Origin: Acidobacteriota bacterium
Lineage (GTDB): Bacteria; Acidobacteriota; Thermoanaerobaculia; Multivoradales; Multivoraceae
Reading direction: 5' to 3'
DNA length: 64,000 nucleotides
Assembly: GCA_003388555.1 (NCBI GenBank)
Contig: QQVD01000025.1
Location: 1-64,000, forward strand
Part shown: positions 39,675-63,313 of the stretch, in pieces
How the letters are laid out: each line of letters starts with the position of its first letter
Numbering within the stretch: the stretch's first letter is position 1
The notes under the pieces: model-generated
What the model saw: the letters and a program-made list of their open reading frames with translations, nothing else
What the model was told of the DNA's origin: nothing
The model's database searches: none
Made by a program: the position numbers and the translations under genes

Positions 39675-42110
39675 ATGAGCACCCCGAGCCGCCCGACTGC
39701 ATGGATCACCGGCGTGCGCCAGGACGTGATGTTCGCGCTGCGTCAGTTCCGCCGCAGCCCAGGCCTGGTGATCACCGCGCTGCTCAGCCTCGGCCTGGGC
39801 ATCGGCTTCCTGGCGACGATCTTCGCCATGACCGACGCCTTCTTCCTGCGTCCGCTCCCCTTCTACGAGCCGGAGCGCGTGGTGCACGTCTGGGGCACCG
39901 ACGGGCGCACCGGCGCCGAGCAGCTGCGGGTCTCGGAGTCGAACTTCCTCGACTGGCGGGCACAGTCCGACCGGTTCGACGACCTCGCCGGCTACTACTA
40001 CTCGGCGTTCACCCTCACTGAGGACGGCGGCAGCTCCAAGCTCAACGGCACCTACGTCTCCACCAACCTGCTCGGCCTGCTCGGCGTCGCGCCGGCCCGC
40101 GGACGCTCGTTCCAGCCCGGCGACGCCGAGGAGGGCGCCGACCGCGTCGCCATCGTCAGCCATCGCTTCTGGCGCGATCAGCTCGCCGCACGCGAGCCGG
40201 TGGTGGGCAGCGAGATCGAGCTCGACGGGATGCGCCACACCGTCATCGGCGCGATGCCGCCGAGCTTCGTCTTCCCGTTCAACAACATGGAGCTGTGGCT
40301 GCCGCTGGCGGTCGAAGCCGACGAGAGCTCGCGCGGCGCCGACGGTCCACTGCTGGTGATCGGCCGCCTCGCCGACGGAGCGACACCGCAGACGGTGCAG
40401 TCCGAACTCGATGCGATCACGGCGCGGCTGGCGGGCCAGTACCCCGACACCAACCAGCAGCGCGGCGCGGTGGTGGTCGAGCTGCGCTCGGCCCTGCTGT
40501 TCACCTGGGACATCTTCCGGCTCGTCTTCCCGGCTCTGTTCGCCGCGGTCGGCTTCGTGCTGCTGCTGGTCTGCGCCAACCTCGGCAACCTGCTGCTGGC
40601 GCGGCTCACCCGGCGCCGCGAGGAGCTCGCCTTCCGGCTCACCCTCGGCGCCAGCCGGAGCCGCATCGTGCGCCAGCTGGTCACCGAGAGCCTGGTGTTG
40701 GGACTGCTCGGCGGCGCCTTCGGGCTCGGCTTCGCGGCCCTTCTGACGGGCGTCCTCGAGCAGGCGATCCCGCTCGACCTCTACCGGGTCGGCGCCATCG
40801 GGCTCGACGCGCGCGGCGTCCTGTTCGCCTTCGTCGCCTGCCTGCTCACCGTGCTCGCCTTCGGCGTCGCCCCGGCGCTGCGCGTGGTCACACCGCGGCT
40901 CGCCCAGACGCTGCGCTCCGGTGGACGGGGCGCCGACGGCGAGACCAGGAGGCTGCGCAATGCCCTGGTGGTCGCCCAGATCGCCCTCGCGGTGATGCTG
41001 GTCGCCGGTGCGGCGCTGATGGCGCGCACCTTCGCCGAGATGCAGGACCTCGAGACAGGTTTCGAGAGCGCCAACCTGCTGACCCTCGAGATCGTGCTGC
41101 CGCAGACCTCGTACCCGGACGACGAGCAGGAGAACGCCTTCTTCGACCAGGTGGTGGCCAACCTGGGGGCGATCCCCGGAGTCGAGGCGGCGACCTCCGG
41201 CTACCCCCTGCCACTGAACTTCGAGAGCCTGGGCGGAGAGATCGAGATCGAAGGCTGGGAGAAGGCGCCCGACGAGGTGCTGCAGGCGAGCACCTACTGG
41301 ATCGGTGACGGCTACCTGGAGACCCTCGGCACGCCCCTGATCGCCGGGCGCATGTTCGAGTCCGGCGACAACGCCGACAGCTCGCCCGTGGTGCTCGTCA
41401 ACCAGACCCTGGCGGAGCGCTACTGGCCGGGCGAAGCGGCGATCGGGCGACGGATCTTCATCGCCGACACATGGCGCGAGATCGTCGGCGTCGCCGGCGA
41501 CTCGGTGACCATGCAGCTCGGCGAGGAGATCCCCTCGGTGGTCTACTACCCGCAGAGTCAGCGCTCGACGAGGCGACGCTTCATCTATCTGCGCCACCAG
41601 CCCGGCGCGACTCCGCCGCTGAGCGAGCTGCGCCAGCGCATCGCACGGGTCGATCCCGCCATCCCGGTGACCAACGTGCGTTCGATGCACCAGGTGGTGG
41701 CGACCTCCTACGGGCCGTGGCTGATGGGTCTCGGCGGCATCGGTGTGCTCGGCTTCGGCGCCCTGCTGCTGGCCAGCGTCGGCCTCTACGGCCTGGTCAG
41801 CTACAGCGTCGCCCAGCGCACCCGCGAGTTCGGCGTGCGCAAGGCGCTGGGAGCCGGCCGCGCCGACGTCGTGCGCCTGGTGCTGCGCGAGAGCTCGGTG
41901 CTGGCGGCGCTCGGGCTCGGAATCGGCATGGTCGGCGTCTTCGCCCTCTCCCGCTTCCTCGCCTCGCTGCTCTTCGGCGTCTCGGCGCTCGATCCGCTGG
42001 CCCTGGGCAGCGTCGCCGTGGTGCTCGCCGCCGCCGTGCTCCTCGCCAGCTGGCTGCCGGCGCGGCGGGCGTCGCGGATCAGTGCGGGGGCGGCGCTGCG
42101 CTGGGAGTGA
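39675..42110 (+). CDS. ADOP/MacB-type ABC transporter permease
   Basis: An 811-aa permease with the duplicated Acidobacterial architecture: an N-terminal helix (VITALLSLGLGIGFLATIFAMTDAFFLRPLPF), a MacB periplasmic domain, three helices (about 285-420), a second periplasmic domain, and three C-terminal helices ending in the FtsX domain (YSVAQRTREFGVRKALGAGRADVVRLVL). It is expected to work with a separate LolD/MacB-type ATPase, exporting a peptide, lipid or drug by a mechanotransmission mechanism; no ATPase gene is adjacent. ATG 39675 has a near-perfect AGGAGGTC ribosome site. Confidence 0.93.
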   Translation: MSTPSRPTAWITGVRQDVMFALRQFRRSPGLVITALLSLGLGIGFLATIFAMTDAFFLRPLPFYEPERVVHVWGTDGRTGAEQLRVSESNFLDWRAQSDRFDDLAGYYYSAFTLTEDGGSSKLNGTYVSTNLLGLLGVAPARGRSFQPGDAEEGADRVAIVSHRFWRDQLAAREPVVGSEIELDGMRHTVIGAMPPSFVFPFNNMELWLPLAVEADESSRGADGPLLVIGRLADGATPQTVQSELDAITARLAGQYPDTNQQRGAVVVELRSALLFTWDIFRLVFPALFAAVGFVLLLVCANLGNLLLARLTRRREELAFRLTLGASRSRIVRQLVTESLVLGLLGGAFGLGFAALLTGVLEQAIPLDLYRVGAIGLDARGVLFAFVACLLTVLAFGVAPALRVVTPRLAQTLRSGGRGADGETRRLRNALVVAQIALAVMLVAGAALMARTFAEMQDLETGFESANLLTLEIVLPQTSYPDDEQENAFFDQVVANLGAIPGVEAATSGYPLPLNFESLGGEIEIEGWEKAPDEVLQASTYWIGDGYLETLGTPLIAGRMFESGDNADSSPVVLVNQTLAERYWPGEAAIGRRIFIADTWREIVGVAGDSVTMQLGEEIPSVVYYPQSQRSTRRRFIYLRHQPGATPPLSELRQRIARVDPAIPVTNVRSMHQVVATSYGPWLMGLGGIGVLGFGALLLASVGLYGLVSYSVAQRTREFGVRKALGAGRADVVRLVLRESSVLAALGLGIGMVGVFALSRFLASLLFGVSALDPLALGSVAVVLAAAVLLASWLPARRASRISAGAALRWE

Positions 42111-55912: not shown

Positions 55913-57868
55913 TTGCTTTCTTCTCAACTGGCCGAGCACATCGAGTCCGGGGTGTCGGTCATCCTGGCGACACGCGACGCAGCGTTGCGGCCGGATGCAC
56001 TGCGCGCGCTCGGCGCCGAGGTCCCCGGCGACGGCACCGTCACCGTCTTCCTGCCAACGGCCGTGGCGGGCCGCTGCCTCGCCAACATCCGCGACAACGG
56101 CCGCCTGGCGGTCGCCTTCTGTCGCATCGCCGACCACTACACCGTGCAGCTCAAGGGCACTGTCGTCGGGGTGGAGGCGGCCGATGGCTCGCAGCGTCAG
56201 CGGGTCGACCGCTACCGCCAGGTCCTGGCCAAGGAGCTCGCCGCGGTCGGCCTACCCGAGCACGTCGTGTTCCGGGTCAATCACTGGCCGTGCGCCGCGG
56301 TGACCTTCCGGCCCGAGACTCTCTTCGATCAGACACCCGGCCCCGAGGCCGGAGCACAGGTCGAGGGCACCGAGGCGCGACCGGGCGCCGATCGGGAGGA
56401 ACCGGCGGCGCCAGGCGGCAGCGCCCTCGAGGTACCGCTCCCACGCTCCACCGCCGAGCCCCTCAACCACCTCGACTTCGCCTGCTTCCAGGGCCTCATA
56501 CCGTCCCTCCTCGCGACCTGCGACGCCGCCGGCGAACCGAACATCACCTACCTCTCGCAGGTGCACCTGGTCGATGCCAGCCACGTGGCGCTGTCGTGCC
56601 AGTTCTTCAACAAGACCAAGCGCAACCTGCTCGAGTACCCCTTCTCGTCGCTGCAGCTCTACCACCCCTTGAGCTTCCAGGCCTGGCAGCTGCGTCTACG
56701 CTTCGAGCACGAGGAGAAAGAGGGGCCCCTGTTCTCGTCGATGGCTGCACGCATCGAGGTCATCGCGTCGCACACCGGCATGTCGGGCATCTTCCGGCTG
56801 CTCTCCGCCGACGTGCACGAGGTGCTCTCGGTCGAGCGCCTGGACGATTTCCTGCTCCCCGAGATCGTGGAGCCCGTGCCGTTGCCGACGACTGCGGGGC
56901 GCCTCAACGAGCTGCAGAGCCTGCAGACGATCTCGGCGCGCATCGCGCAGGCCAACGACCTCGACGAGCTCCTCGAGCACGGGCTGCAGGCGCTCGACGA
57001 CCTGCTCGGCCTGCAGCACACCATGGTGCTGGCGCTCGACGCAGCGGGACTGCATCTCGACCTGGTCGGCCAGCACGGGTACGACGACTCCGCGGCGGGC
57101 TCGTGCGCCGGGCGGGTGTCGATCGAGATGGGCAAAGGCGTCATCGGCACCGCGGCGATGACCCGCCAGGCGGTGCGGGTGACCGCGATCGGCAGCGGAC
57201 TCAGCTACGGGCGGGCGGTGCGCGGCCGCGTCGCGGAGCTCAGCCCGGGCCAGGCTCTGCCGCCCGAGGTCGGCCTGCCCGGGCTCTGCGACGCGCAAGC
57301 GCAGATGGCGCTGCCGATGCTGGTCGGCTGCCGGCTGGTCGGCGTGCTGGCGGCCGAGAGCCGCGATCCGCTGGGCTTCGACGAGTGGGACGAGGCTTTC
57401 CTGCGCATCGTCGCCAACCAGGTCGGCGCCAGGCTGCAGAGCCTGATGGCGCCTCACGAGCGCACCACGTCAGTCGCCGGCCCTACCCATCCGGCGACAG
57501 CGAACGGCGACGGCGGCGAGGTGCCGCGGAGCGCCGTCGCCACCAGCCGCCGATTCGTCTTCTACAGCGATCAGGACACCATGTTCGTCGACGGCGAGTA
57601 CCTGATCCGCAACGTCCCGGCTCGGATCCTCTGGCGCACCCTCAGGCGCTACGTCGACGATGGACAGCGCGAGCACGCCAACCGTGAGCTCAGGCTCGAC
57701 CGCTCCCTCGGCCTGCCGGCCTACCGCGACAACCTGGAGAGCCGCCTGCTGCTGCTGCGCAGACGGCTGGAGGAGCGTTGCCCCGAGGTACGGCTGGTGC
57801 CGGTGAAACGCGGCCGCTTCGCGCTCGAGACGGACTGCCGCATCGAGCTGGAGGAGCGCGCCGGCTGA
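55913..57868 (+). CDS. PPOX-like / GAF domain / winged-helix-like regulatory protein
   Basis: About 651 aa. Residues 1-130 resemble a pyridoxamine-phosphate-oxidase split barrel (ESGVSVILATRDAALRPDALR, LANIRDNGRLAVAFCRI). A second such barrel begins near LDFACFQGLIPSLLATCDAAGEPNITYLSQVHLV, spread over residues 183-217. Residues about 340-520 hold a GAF domain (LQTISARIAQANDLDELLEHGLQALDD, MGKGVIGTAAMTRQAVRV, LPMLVGCRLVGVLAAES). The last 100 residues, starting RRFVFYSDQDTMFVDGEYLI, look like a response-regulator-type winged helix with a VKRGRFAL wing. Together this suggests a flavin- or ligand-sensing transcription regulator. The start is uncertain: TTG 55913 is chosen as the first plausible codon before the barrel. 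Confidence 0.75.
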   Translation: MLSSQLAEHIESGVSVILATRDAALRPDALRALGAEVPGDGTVTVFLPTAVAGRCLANIRDNGRLAVAFCRIADHYTVQLKGTVVGVEAADGSQRQRVDRYRQVLAKELAAVGLPEHVVFRVNHWPCAAVTFRPETLFDQTPGPEAGAQVEGTEARPGADREEPAAPGGSALEVPLPRSTAEPLNHLDFACFQGLIPSLLATCDAAGEPNITYLSQVHLVDASHVALSCQFFNKTKRNLLEYPFSSLQLYHPLSFQAWQLRLRFEHEEKEGPLFSSMAARIEVIASHTGMSGIFRLLSADVHEVLSVERLDDFLLPEIVEPVPLPTTAGRLNELQSLQTISARIAQANDLDELLEHGLQALDDLLGLQHTMVLALDAAGLHLDLVGQHGYDDSAAGSCAGRVSIEMGKGVIGTAAMTRQAVRVTAIGSGLSYGRAVRGRVAELSPGQALPPEVGLPGLCDAQAQMALPMLVGCRLVGVLAAESRDPLGFDEWDEAFLRIVANQVGARLQSLMAPHERTTSVAGPTHPATANGDGGEVPRSAVATSRRFVFYSDQDTMFVDGEYLIRNVPARILWRTLRRYVDDGQREHANRELRLDRSLGLPAYRDNLESRLLLLRRRLEERCPEVRLVPVKRGRFALETDCRIELEERAG

Positions 57869-57941
57869 GCCTCTCAGCGCGGCAACCTCCTGCCAGCCCA
57901 GCCTGCCCATTTCGCCACCGTCGCCGACCGGCGGGGACGCA

Positions 57942-57976
57942 ACGCGTGGATTCCGGGTCTCCGCCCGGAACGATGA
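57942..57976. repeat. interspersed intergenic repeat, inverted diverged copy
   Basis: ACGCGTGGATTCCGGGTCT followed by CCGCCCGGAACGATGAG is the reverse complement, with several changes, of the element at 42259-42294 and 63720-63752. It lies in the 176-nt gap between the PPOX-GAF gene and the IS110-type element. Confidence 0.5.
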
Positions 57977-57989
57977 GATGGACTCCTCC

Positions 57990-58830
57990 TCCTCCGCGTG
58001 GGAGTTGGAATCACCTAGCAAGTTCTTCTGAGAAGGAGTCCGAGATGAAGAGTACCGTGATTGCGATCGACATCGCCAAGAACGTGTTCCAGGTAGCGGT
58101 GAGCAAGACGCCGGGCAAGGTGTGCGAGGAGCATCGCCTGAGTCGTGGCAAGGTCTTCGAATGGCTGGCCCGGCGCGAGGAGTCGGTGGTGGTGATGGAG
58201 GCCTGTGGATCGGCCCATCACCTTGGGCGCAAGTGTCTCGAGTACGGGCACGAAGCAGTGCTGCTGCCACCGGATCGGCTCGGTCCGATCTCGAAACGAG
58301 TCAATCGCTACCTGCGCGAGATGCTGATCCACGGCGCCCGGAGTGCCCTCAACAGGGCCAAGGCGAGAAGCGAGGACGATCGCACCCACCTCGAGACGTG
58401 GGCCGTTCGCCTCGACGCCAGGAAGGGCTACAACAAGGCCGTCGTCGCCCTTGCCAACCGCATCGCTCGCGCCGTCTGGGCCGTTTGGACGCAGAGGCGC
58501 ATGTGGCAGCCCGATTGTCCGCCGGCCACTGCCGCCTGACAGGTCGAACCCTTCTCCGAGGAGAACGACGGCGATGAGCCGCGGGCTACCCCGAATCGAG
58601 GCGAGCCGCTTCCGTCATGGCCTATAGGGCCGCCGGAATGATTGGCACCTCGTGATCGGAACTCATCTTGGCCAGGATCCACACAGATCCACCTACGGGC
58701 CGGAGACATGACTGAGTCCCTCAACAACTCGACAGCCCCAGCTCCACACCGCTCCTCATCCAAAACCCGAACTCGGACCAGAGAAAGGCCACGAAGATGA
58801 CTTGACAACGAGTAGGAGCCCAGACATGAC
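57990..58830 (+). mobile_element. internally deleted IS110-family (IS1111-like) insertion element
   Basis: A truncated IS110-type transposase frame with its own ribosome site (AAGGAG), short left flank and about 290 nt of 3' non-coding DNA ending near a CTTGACAACGAG sequence of the kind found at IS1111-group right ends. IS110 elements lack long inverted repeats, so the boundaries given are approximate. In the IS1111 group the guide (bridge/seek) RNA is encoded between the transposase gene and the right end, so the retained 58540-58830 segment could still specify one. Beyond it, to 59104, I see only one copy of another intergenic repeat. Confidence 0.6.
58045..58539 (+). pseudogene. IS110-family transposase with an internal deletion
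   Basis: 164 codons where about 340 are expected. The N-terminal RuvC-like part is intact (TVIAIDIAKNVFQVAV with the first Asp, VVVMEACGSAHHLG with the Glu, YGHEAVLLPP). It then jumps in frame to the far C-terminal end of the family (LGPISKRVNRYLREMLIHGARSAL through ALANRIARAVWAV). The missing middle contains the last two acidic residues (the KTDAxDA region) and the catalytic Ser of the C-terminal domain, so the protein cannot be an active recombinase. The joint lies near 58270-58290. The frame is otherwise undamaged, which suggests a recent deletion. Confidence 0.8.
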
Positions 58831-61774: not shown

Positions 61775-61837
61775 AACACCGGGCATCGTACTCCCCCCGC
61801 GGGCACGACGGGGTTGGCGGATCCCGGACTAGGCGAG

Positions 61838-61984
61838 ACATTTTTGTCGAACCAGGCCTCCTGCAGGCGTGTTCTCGACAAAAAAGTAGCGACCGGCGGA
61901 ACCTCCTCTCTCGGGCGCGTTTGCCGGCGTCGGCCCGCCGAGGCGCTGCCTCCGCGCCCCACGCGACCCACATTTTCGTCGCAC
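61838..61984. promoter_or_regulatory. three copies of a TTTTTGTCGA motif upstream of the sigma-54 promoter
   Basis: ACATTTTTGTCGAAC (61838-61852), its inverted near-copy GTTCTCGACAAAAAAGT (61871-61887), and ACATTTTCGTCGCAC (61970-61984) lie 90-235 bp upstream of the -24 element of glnII. AT-rich motifs of this kind stand out in GC-rich DNA. The distance is right for upstream activating sites bound by an NtrC-type enhancer-binding protein. The first two also form a 10-bp inverted repeat that could act as a terminator for the sugar-transferase gene. Confidence 0.55.
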
Positions 61985-62072
61985 GCCCCTGGCCGCTCGA
62001 CGCGCCTCCGCAACGCGGCCGAAGTCGCCCCGCTGGCGGCTCCCGGCACCGTCCCGCCTCCACCGCCGCCCG

Positions 62073-62088
62073 TGGCACATCACTTGCT
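62073..62088 (+). promoter_or_regulatory. sigma-54 promoter of glnII
   Basis: TGGCAC-ATCAC-TTGCT matches the -24/-12 consensus, with GG and GC exactly 10 nt apart (62074-62075 and 62086-62087). Transcription would start near 62099, leaving a 225-nt leader before the glutamine synthetase ATG. It is the only such site I noticed upstream of a gene in this window. Confidence 0.75.
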
Positions 62089-62323
62089 CTTATGCAGAGA
62101 CACGGACGGCAGATCCGATTCCGCTGTGGCGGCGCGACGCCAACCGGCGGACGGCGCCGCCGCAGCGGCTGCGACGGATGGCGACTCGGACGAATCCCAG
62201 CTGGCTGCCCATTCGGGGCAAGCAGGGCCTTCGTCCATCTGCCCCGACCGCCGCCAGAACCTCGACGGTTCATCCCCTCGAACTCCCCGCCTCTAACCCG
62301 AAACAAGGAGCAGCTGAGATCCC

Positions 62324-63313
62324 ATGGCCTTCAAACTCGAATATGTCTGGCTCGACGGCTACAAGCCCGAACCCAACCTCCGCAGCAAGACCAAGATCGT
62401 CGCCGACGAGCCGAGCTCGCCAGAGGAGTGCCCGCAGTGGTCGTTCGACGGCAGCTCCACCGAACAGGCGGAGGGCAGCCGCTCGGACTGCCTGCTGCAG
62501 CCGGTCCGCATGATCCCCGATCCCGCCCGCGACAGCGCCGCCCTGGTGCTCTGTGAGGTGCTGGCTGCCGACGGCTCGGTGCATCCGTCGAACCGTCGCG
62601 GTCAGTTCGAGGACGACGAGGACCTCTGGCTCGGCTTCGAGCAGGAGTACACCCTGATGGCCGGCAACGCTCCGCTCGGCTTCCCGCCCGACGGCTACCC
62701 CGGTCCCCAGGGCCCGTACTACTGCTCGGTGGGCATCAACAACTGCGTCGGCCGCGAGGTCGTCGAGGCCCACCTCGACGTCTGCCTCGAGGCGGGCCTC
62801 AACATCACCGGCATCAACGCCGAGGTGATGAAGGGCCAGTGGGAGTTCCAGCTCTTCGGCAAGGGCGCCAAGCGCGCCTCCGACGATCTCTGGCTGGCGC
62901 GCTACCTCCTCTACCGCACCGCCGAGGCCTTCGACGTCCGCGTCTCGATCCATCCCAAGCCGATCAAGGGCGACTGGAACGGCAGCGGCATGCACACCAA
63001 CTTCTCGAACACCGCGATCCGTGAGGAGGGCGGCGAGGATCTGATCAAGGAGATCTGCGAGAGGTTCCGGCCGGTGCACAAGGACCACATCGCCGAGTAC
63101 GGGTCCGACAACGAGCAGCGCCTGACCGGTCTGCACGAGACCCAGGCGATCGACAAGTTCTCCTACGGCGTGAGCGACCGCGGCGCCTCGATCCGCATCC
63201 CGGTCGGCACCGTGCAGGCCGGCTGGAAGGGTTACCTGGAGGACCGCCGGCCGGCCTCCAATGCCGACCCCTACCGGGTCGCGGCGCAGCTGCTCAAGAC
63301 ACTGAAGTCGTAG
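62324..63313 (+). CDS. glnII: type II (eukaryote-like) glutamine synthetase
   Basis: A 329-aa enzyme making glutamine from glutamate, ammonia and ATP. The sequence matches the GSII class rather than the 470-aa GSI class: WSFDGSSTEQAEG near residues 45-57, WLGFEQEYTLM near 104, CSVGINNCVGREVVEAHLDVCLEAG, INAEVMKGQWEFQL near 165-180, and HPKPIKGDWNGSGMHTNFS near 211-229. Metal-binding Glu and His residues are present. AAGGAG lies somewhat far (about 13 nt) from ATG 62324. Expression is probably under sigma-54 and a nitrogen activator, as at other GSII loci. A strong GC hairpin follows the stop. Confidence 0.93.
   Translation: MAFKLEYVWLDGYKPEPNLRSKTKIVADEPSSPEECPQWSFDGSSTEQAEGSRSDCLLQPVRMIPDPARDSAALVLCEVLAADGSVHPSNRRGQFEDDEDLWLGFEQEYTLMAGNAPLGFPPDGYPGPQGPYYCSVGINNCVGREVVEAHLDVCLEAGLNITGINAEVMKGQWEFQLFGKGAKRASDDLWLARYLLYRTAEAFDVRVSIHPKPIKGDWNGSGMHTNFSNTAIREEGGEDLIKEICERFRPVHKDHIAEYGSDNEQRLTGLHETQAIDKFSYGVSDRGASIRIPVGTVQAGWKGYLEDRRPASNADPYRVAAQLLKTLKS

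Follow-up and report, generated by a model that had tools for sequence, protein, structure and literature searches.

A sigma-54 glnII promoter with palindromic upstream sites and its probable NifA/AnfA-like activator

Several described enhancer-binding proteins (EBPs) bear on the control of nitrogen genes by sigma-54. The glnII gene of Sinorhizobium is described as being driven by NtrC (PMC5127829), and sites for the nitrogenase activator AnfA are reported to have the consensus TAC-N6-GTA (PMC7294313). Two proteins of Desulfovibrio vulgaris are relevant here: DVU1949, presented as a one-component EBP for nitrogen metabolism and transport operons, and DVUA0143, assigned to the nitrogenase (nif) operon on phylogenetic and comparative grounds (PMC4641369). 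The NifA-like protein Nlh1 of Aquifex is proposed to act in nitrogen assimilation instead of fixation (PMC9866876); structures of its GAF domain are present in the PDB. One-component EBPs for nitrogen assimilation have thus already been proposed elsewhere (DVU1949, PMC4641369; Nlh1, PMC9866876). Among openly licensed full texts we found no account of the operator, or of this family's nitrogen regulon, that we describe below.

The locus considered here lies in a stretch of 64,000 nucleotides (the window, 64 kb). Our preferred explanation, to which we give a probability of about 0.75, is that the region at 61838-62088 serves glnII as an enhancer-dependent sigma-54 promoter, and that the predicted activator encoded at positions 39682-41193 of another contig of the same genome (C25:39682-41193) acts on it from three palindromic sites, A, B and C.

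The glnII promoter and its upstream sites

The glnII gene (62324-63313, forward strand) encodes a type II glutamine synthetase with the Pfam domains Gln-synt_N and Gln-synt_C. Its product aligns over its full length with the GlnII model NF041605 and scores 426.3 bits, below the 500-bit equivalog cut-off. The gene is the sole Pfam Gln-synt_C match in the genome of the window (G000). The same is true of the type II enzyme in a second genome of the family (G002). The sister genus g2 instead possesses GSI; in G000 and G002, GSI has been wholly replaced by GSII. A bacterial sugar transferase gene (PF02397, 61046-61774) lies immediately 5' of the glnII control region on the same strand, and an open reading frame at 57778-58539, which has no Pfam match, encodes what we take to be the start of an IS110-type transposase.

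The -24/-12 element TGGCACATCACTTGCT is located at 62073-62088 on the forward strand. It has GG-N10-GC spacing and agrees with the TGGCAC/TTGC consensus, so that the TGGCAC-N5-TTGCT with perfect GG/GC spacing that the original prediction had placed before glnII is borne out. On a simple -24/-12 score the element reaches 18 out of 18, and it is the sole position scoring 16.5 or more on either strand of the window. The exact string TGGCACN5TTGCT has five matches genome-wide and five in a reversed control, which is the chance level, and the element is therefore convincing only in context. Transcription from this promoter would give a leader of about 225 nt (62099-62323, forward strand), starting about 12 nt past the -12 element and ending at the start codon. 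The leader has no significant Rfam match and belongs to no known RNA family; a riboswitch or other known RNA at this position was rejected on the strength of that search.

Upstream of the promoter are three imperfect palindromes of the form CGACA-N4-TGTCG, to which no strand is assigned. Site A, AGACATTTTTGTCG (61836-61849), is centred 231.5 bp before the -24 GG and differs by one mismatch from the query CGACAWWWWTGTCG used below. Site B, CGACAAAAAAGTAG (61876-61889), is centred 191.5 bp upstream, 40 bp from site A, and keeps the AC-N6-GT core; site C, CCACATTTTCGTCG (61968-61981), is centred 99.5 bp upstream. AC-N6-GT is invariant in all three. Site A is the only ACA-N4-TGT in the window, the other two sites being degenerate. 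The region had been described as holding three copies of a motif, two direct and one inverted, 90-235 bp upstream. Copies of TTTTTGTCGA do occur at 61841, 61875 (inverted) and 61973, and their positions and distances hold, but each copy is half of a palindrome, so that "direct" and "inverted" tell merely which half is better preserved.

The sites differ from those of the familiar nitrogen activators. The NtrC consensus GCAC-N5..7-GTGC does not occur in the 549-bp upstream region (61775-62323), and the NifA-type TGT-N10-ACA occurs neither upstream of glnII nor anywhere in the window; canonical NtrC sites and NifA sites were rejected on these grounds. The AnfA/VnfA-type TAC-N6-GTA is likewise absent from the window, where sites A-C have AC-N6-GT with the outer T/A replaced.

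Distribution and conservation of the palindrome

The 6.8-Mb genome of the window was scanned with CGACAWWWWTGTCG (CGACA-W4-TGTCG), allowing up to two mismatches, and yielded 50 sites compared with eight in the reversed control. The sole perfect match, at C18:115321, lies 5' of an ammonium transporter gene (amt, by Pfam) with a P-II gene after it, the arrangement of amt-glnK; the promoter there carries a -24/-12 element, TTGGCTCCCGTGTTGCAG, 210.5 bp from the palindrome. Site A is second-best in the genome and the sole one-mismatch match, with B and C among the remaining 48, and the three are the only matches within two mismatches on their 186-kb contig. The expected association of the motif with other nitrogen genes is thus found at amt-glnK, which has the best site, and fails at gltB. 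None of nine readable gltB upstream regions in the family contains the palindrome (the tenth, in G003, is a fragment), and gltB was rejected as a member of the regulon; the one core match at G002 gltB is inside the gene.

Conservation was assessed in 24 genomes of the family (G000-G023) from four genera, of which g2 contributes 21 genomes, by asking for a palindrome with at most one mismatch upstream of the gene; 5000 control windows and Markov-shuffled promoters served as controls. Three loci whose upstream DNA ends at a contig end (L167, L249 and the G022 glnA fragment) were excluded from the counts. The palindrome is present at 3 of 3 glnII, 18 of 23 amt and 16 of 19 glnA loci with readable upstream DNA, as compared with 1.3% of the control windows and 1.9% of the shuffles. 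The glnII gene is found in G000, G002 and G003 and is missing from the 21 g2 genomes; the glnA (GSI) counts come from 19 g2 genomes with readable upstream DNA. A sigma-54 element and palindromes are present at each of the three glnII promoters, which indicates that the motif before glnII is conserved in relatives, and one site of G002 lies 99.5 bp upstream, the same distance as site C of G000. The g2 genomes are closely related and the family counts are therefore not independent, yet three genes and four genera concur.

The spacing of the sites is also conserved. Two exact ACA-N4-TGT cores with a separation of 30-31 bp occur in 20 of 23 amt promoters and in none of 20,000 control windows; paired sites are 31-32 bp apart at 16 of 19 glnA loci, and the glnII pairs are separated by 30 bp (G002), 31 bp (G003) and 40 bp (G000). 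Downstream of the palindromes a -24/-12 element is present at 3 of 3 glnII and 16 of 19 glnA loci, and rpoN (PF04552) is present in all 24 genomes. In the g2 amt promoters (L166-L187) the paired palindromes are followed by a near-invariant TTGGCACGATTCTCG or TTGGCACGGTTCTGG, with a conserved -24 part, TTGGCACG, and a non-canonical -12 part, TCG or TGG in place of TTGC; possibly this is a tolerated variant of the sigma-54 promoter. The amt site of G018 (L171) is weak, with two mismatches. At glnA of G011, G023 and G010 (L243, L244 and L245) the palindromes and the sigma-54 element are both missing, as if the gene had exited the regulon.

Palindromes of this kind are typical also of dimeric repressors, and the sites could in principle be bound by a repressor or another regulator that is not an EBP and lie upstream of sigma-54 promoters incidentally. 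We regard this as quite improbable, given that the sites are located some 85-250 bp upstream of the -24/-12 elements and are paired about three helical turns apart, and that the same core precedes a sigma-54 nifH promoter, to which we return below.

The regulon appears to be narrow in both its gene content and its taxonomic range. No site within two mismatches precedes any of six second amt paralogs examined in g2, and ACA-N4-TGT is found at none of eight additional glutamine synthetase-like genes examined in g2 and G003. Across the 24 genomes, 30 loci were examined among the listed matches to CGACANNNNTGTCGC, and most fall within predicted coding frames, the exceptions being amt and glnA upstream regions. 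Outside the family but within the order, neither the palindrome (0 of 19) nor the NtrC site (0 of 19) is found before glutamine synthetase genes. Of 80 GlnII loci from other groups, eight show a sigma-54-like element no more than 700 bp away and three have a site within one mismatch of GACAWWWWTGTC, none of which is upstream of a sigma-54-like element. Two glnII loci of Pseudomonadales (L088 and L089) have a sigma-54 element preceded by pairs of GCAC-N7-GTGC with a spacing of 30 bp, and a gene for an NtrC-type protein downstream; their geometry is identical to that of the family and the letters are different. The retention of the palindrome before glnII, amt and glnA within the family, and its absence from other families, argue for a nitrogen regulon at the level of the lineage, with sites unlike those of NtrC. 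Comparative genomics, through this conservation and the lack of an NtrC consensus, thus supports the view of the region as a complete enhancer-dependent nitrogen promoter with activator sites other than NtrC's.

The chance-level count of the exact sigma-54 string would suit a reading of the sites as chance AT-rich repeats beside an unremarkable promoter. That reading is hardly credible, as it is contradicted by the genome-wide ranking, the clustering, the controls and the conservation at three genes in four genera; a chance origin of the sites was rejected by the scan, window, shuffle and other-family controls.

The candidate activator

G000 has 27 Sigma54_activat matches, 22 of them strong, corresponding to about 22 EBPs. 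NCBIfam models were scanned against 21 of the 22 strong matches (L155 was left out), and none of the 21 reaches the NtrC equivalog cut-off (best score 457.8, cut-off 558.6). The product of C25:39682-41193 scores 527.9 bits against the NifA model TIGR01817, just under the cut-off of 528.85. It has GAF, Sigma54_activat (PF00158) and Fis-type HTH_8 (PF02954) domains and a GAFTGA motif, and among proteins of solved structure its best match is a Nif-specific regulatory protein, with an alignment that spans residues 6-497 of 504. The original prediction had looked to an NtrC homologue as the local activator. With no EBP at the NtrC cut-off among those scanned, an NtrC-type protein is not supported, and the likely activator is a one-component protein of the NifA/AnfA type (GAF-AAA+-Fis HTH). 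Despite this resemblance, nifH is not found above cut-off in any of the 24 family genomes.

An ortholog of the activator is present in 23 of the 24 genomes, the exception being G018 (88% complete), and full-length matches in 36 genomes of other families are merely 38-42% identical. In G002 the activator gene is co-oriented with glnII and starts about 47 bp downstream of it, if its start codon is correctly placed. In G003 (L218, C1307) a palindrome and a sigma-54 element lie between two tandem paralogs of the activator, an arrangement that suggests a cascade or feedback. In G000 the activator gene adjoins neither glnII nor amt; the 19-kb region around it holds no site within two mismatches, and a weaker GCGACAAAAACGTAA is located upstream of the gene. 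An open reading frame, presumably for a nucleotide-sugar dehydrogenase, precedes the activator gene in G000 (C25, L165) and the glnII-activator pair in G002 (C28, L007), and it looks as though glnII has entered or left this neighbourhood.

An NtrBC-type or other response-regulator EBP that binds the palindromes with drifted specificity would also account for sites paired about 30 bp apart, which resemble NtrC enhancers (the canonical pair of L088 and L089 has a spacing of 30 bp), and the genome does encode several response-regulator EBPs, for example an NtrX-like one at 510 bits. We consider this alternative unlikely: it is at odds with the failure of all 21 scanned EBPs at the NtrC cut-off, with the restriction of the palindrome to the family, which parallels that of the NifA-like gene, and with the physical linkage of the NifA-like gene to glnII in G002 and to the site in G003. 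Another of the approximately 22 EBPs of G000 could nevertheless be the binder of the sites.

The promoter elements, the palindromes with their conservation, spacing and distribution, and the distribution and linkage of the activator gene are facts of the sequences. The mechanism that we propose to connect them is as follows. Dimers of the NifA/AnfA-like protein would bind palindromes A, B and C and assemble an AAA+ ring, and looping of the DNA would then bring the ring to sigma-54 polymerase at 62073-62088, with the promoter being opened under nitrogen shortage. A response to nitrogen is predicted, and contact with P-II or a ligand of the GAF domain is a plausible signal; transcription is expected to depend on rpoN. 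The same protein and site would control the amt-glnK operon and, in g2, glnA. Co-transcription of glnII with the activator gene in G002 would result in positive feedback.

Relation to nitrogenase activators and other known systems

The best plasmid-borne homolog of the candidate activator is that of Nitratidesulfovibrio vulgaris (44.6% identity over 95%), which we identify, by its plasmid location and similarity, as the probable ortholog of DVUA0143. On that plasmid, the nifH promoter contains GCTACAAAAATGTAGC followed by TGGCACATCCCTTGC, and has the ACA-N4-TGT core of the family sites. GCTACAAAAATGTAGC is the only site within one mismatch of GCTACAN4TGTAGC in 49 kb, and a sigma-54 element lies downstream of it. 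The family palindromes, this nifH site and the AnfA consensus have AC-N6-GT in common, at an equal distance from the dyad, which argues that the activator of the family and its sites descend from the nitrogenase-activator type. The proposal of a lineage-specific nitrogen regulon consequently stands for the regulon itself and not for the core of its sites, since AC-N6-GT is shared with the Desulfovibrio nifH promoter and AnfA sites. We think that the family operator is a site of the nitrogenase-activator type in which G/C has replaced T/A outside the core. The evolutionary proposal that follows is, in our estimation, an even bet: that in this nitrogenase-free family a GAF activator of the NifA/AnfA type replaced NtrBC and runs glnII or glnA and amt-glnK through (G)CGACA-N4-TGTCG(C), a site derived by base substitution from an ancestral AC-N6-GT site.

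If correct, these findings would identify the operator, the candidate activator and a small core set of target genes for nitrogen control in a lineage whose scanned EBPs include no NtrC equivalog, and would supply an example of a nitrogen-fixation-type activator working without nitrogenase. Were the takeover of the NtrBC role by a NifA/AnfA-type protein to be true as well, regulators of fixation and assimilation would be linked by a traceable change in protein and operator. The graded changes in the sites, together with a diazotroph relative that has nearly the same core, make a handy test of how EBP specificity changes.

Compared with the NtrC/sigma-54 promoters of Proteobacteria (glnA, glnII, amtB), the family has in common the targets, the -24/-12 element, at least two upstream dimer sites and a spacing of about 30 bp (cf. 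L088 and L089). The sites themselves are different, GCAC-N7-GTGC in NtrC systems and CGACA-N4-TGTCG in the family, and so are the proteins: NtrC has a receiver domain and the candidate has GAF, with no NtrC equivalog among the 21 EBPs scanned. Nlh1 and Nlh2 of Aquifex are NifA-like, as is the candidate, but belong to a distant organism, and the passages of PMC9866876 considered here show neither an operator nor a regulon for them. DVU1949 resembles the candidate in being a one-component nitrogen EBP, a likeness that is drawn from its published description. For DVUA0143 the assigned target is nitrogenase, according to the same description, whereas the targets in the family are assimilation genes. 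From NifA, AnfA and VnfA, the candidate differs in its NifA score just below cut-off, in the lack of nifH from all 24 genomes, in the absence of TGT-N10-ACA and in its targets, which are glnII, glnA and amt-glnK. It nevertheless has their GAF-AAA+-Fis architecture, shows 42-45% identity, across almost the whole protein, with a NifA and with the Nitratidesulfovibrio homolog, and is associated with a palindrome that shares AC-N6-GT with the AnfA site TAC-N6-GTA as it is given in PMC7294313.
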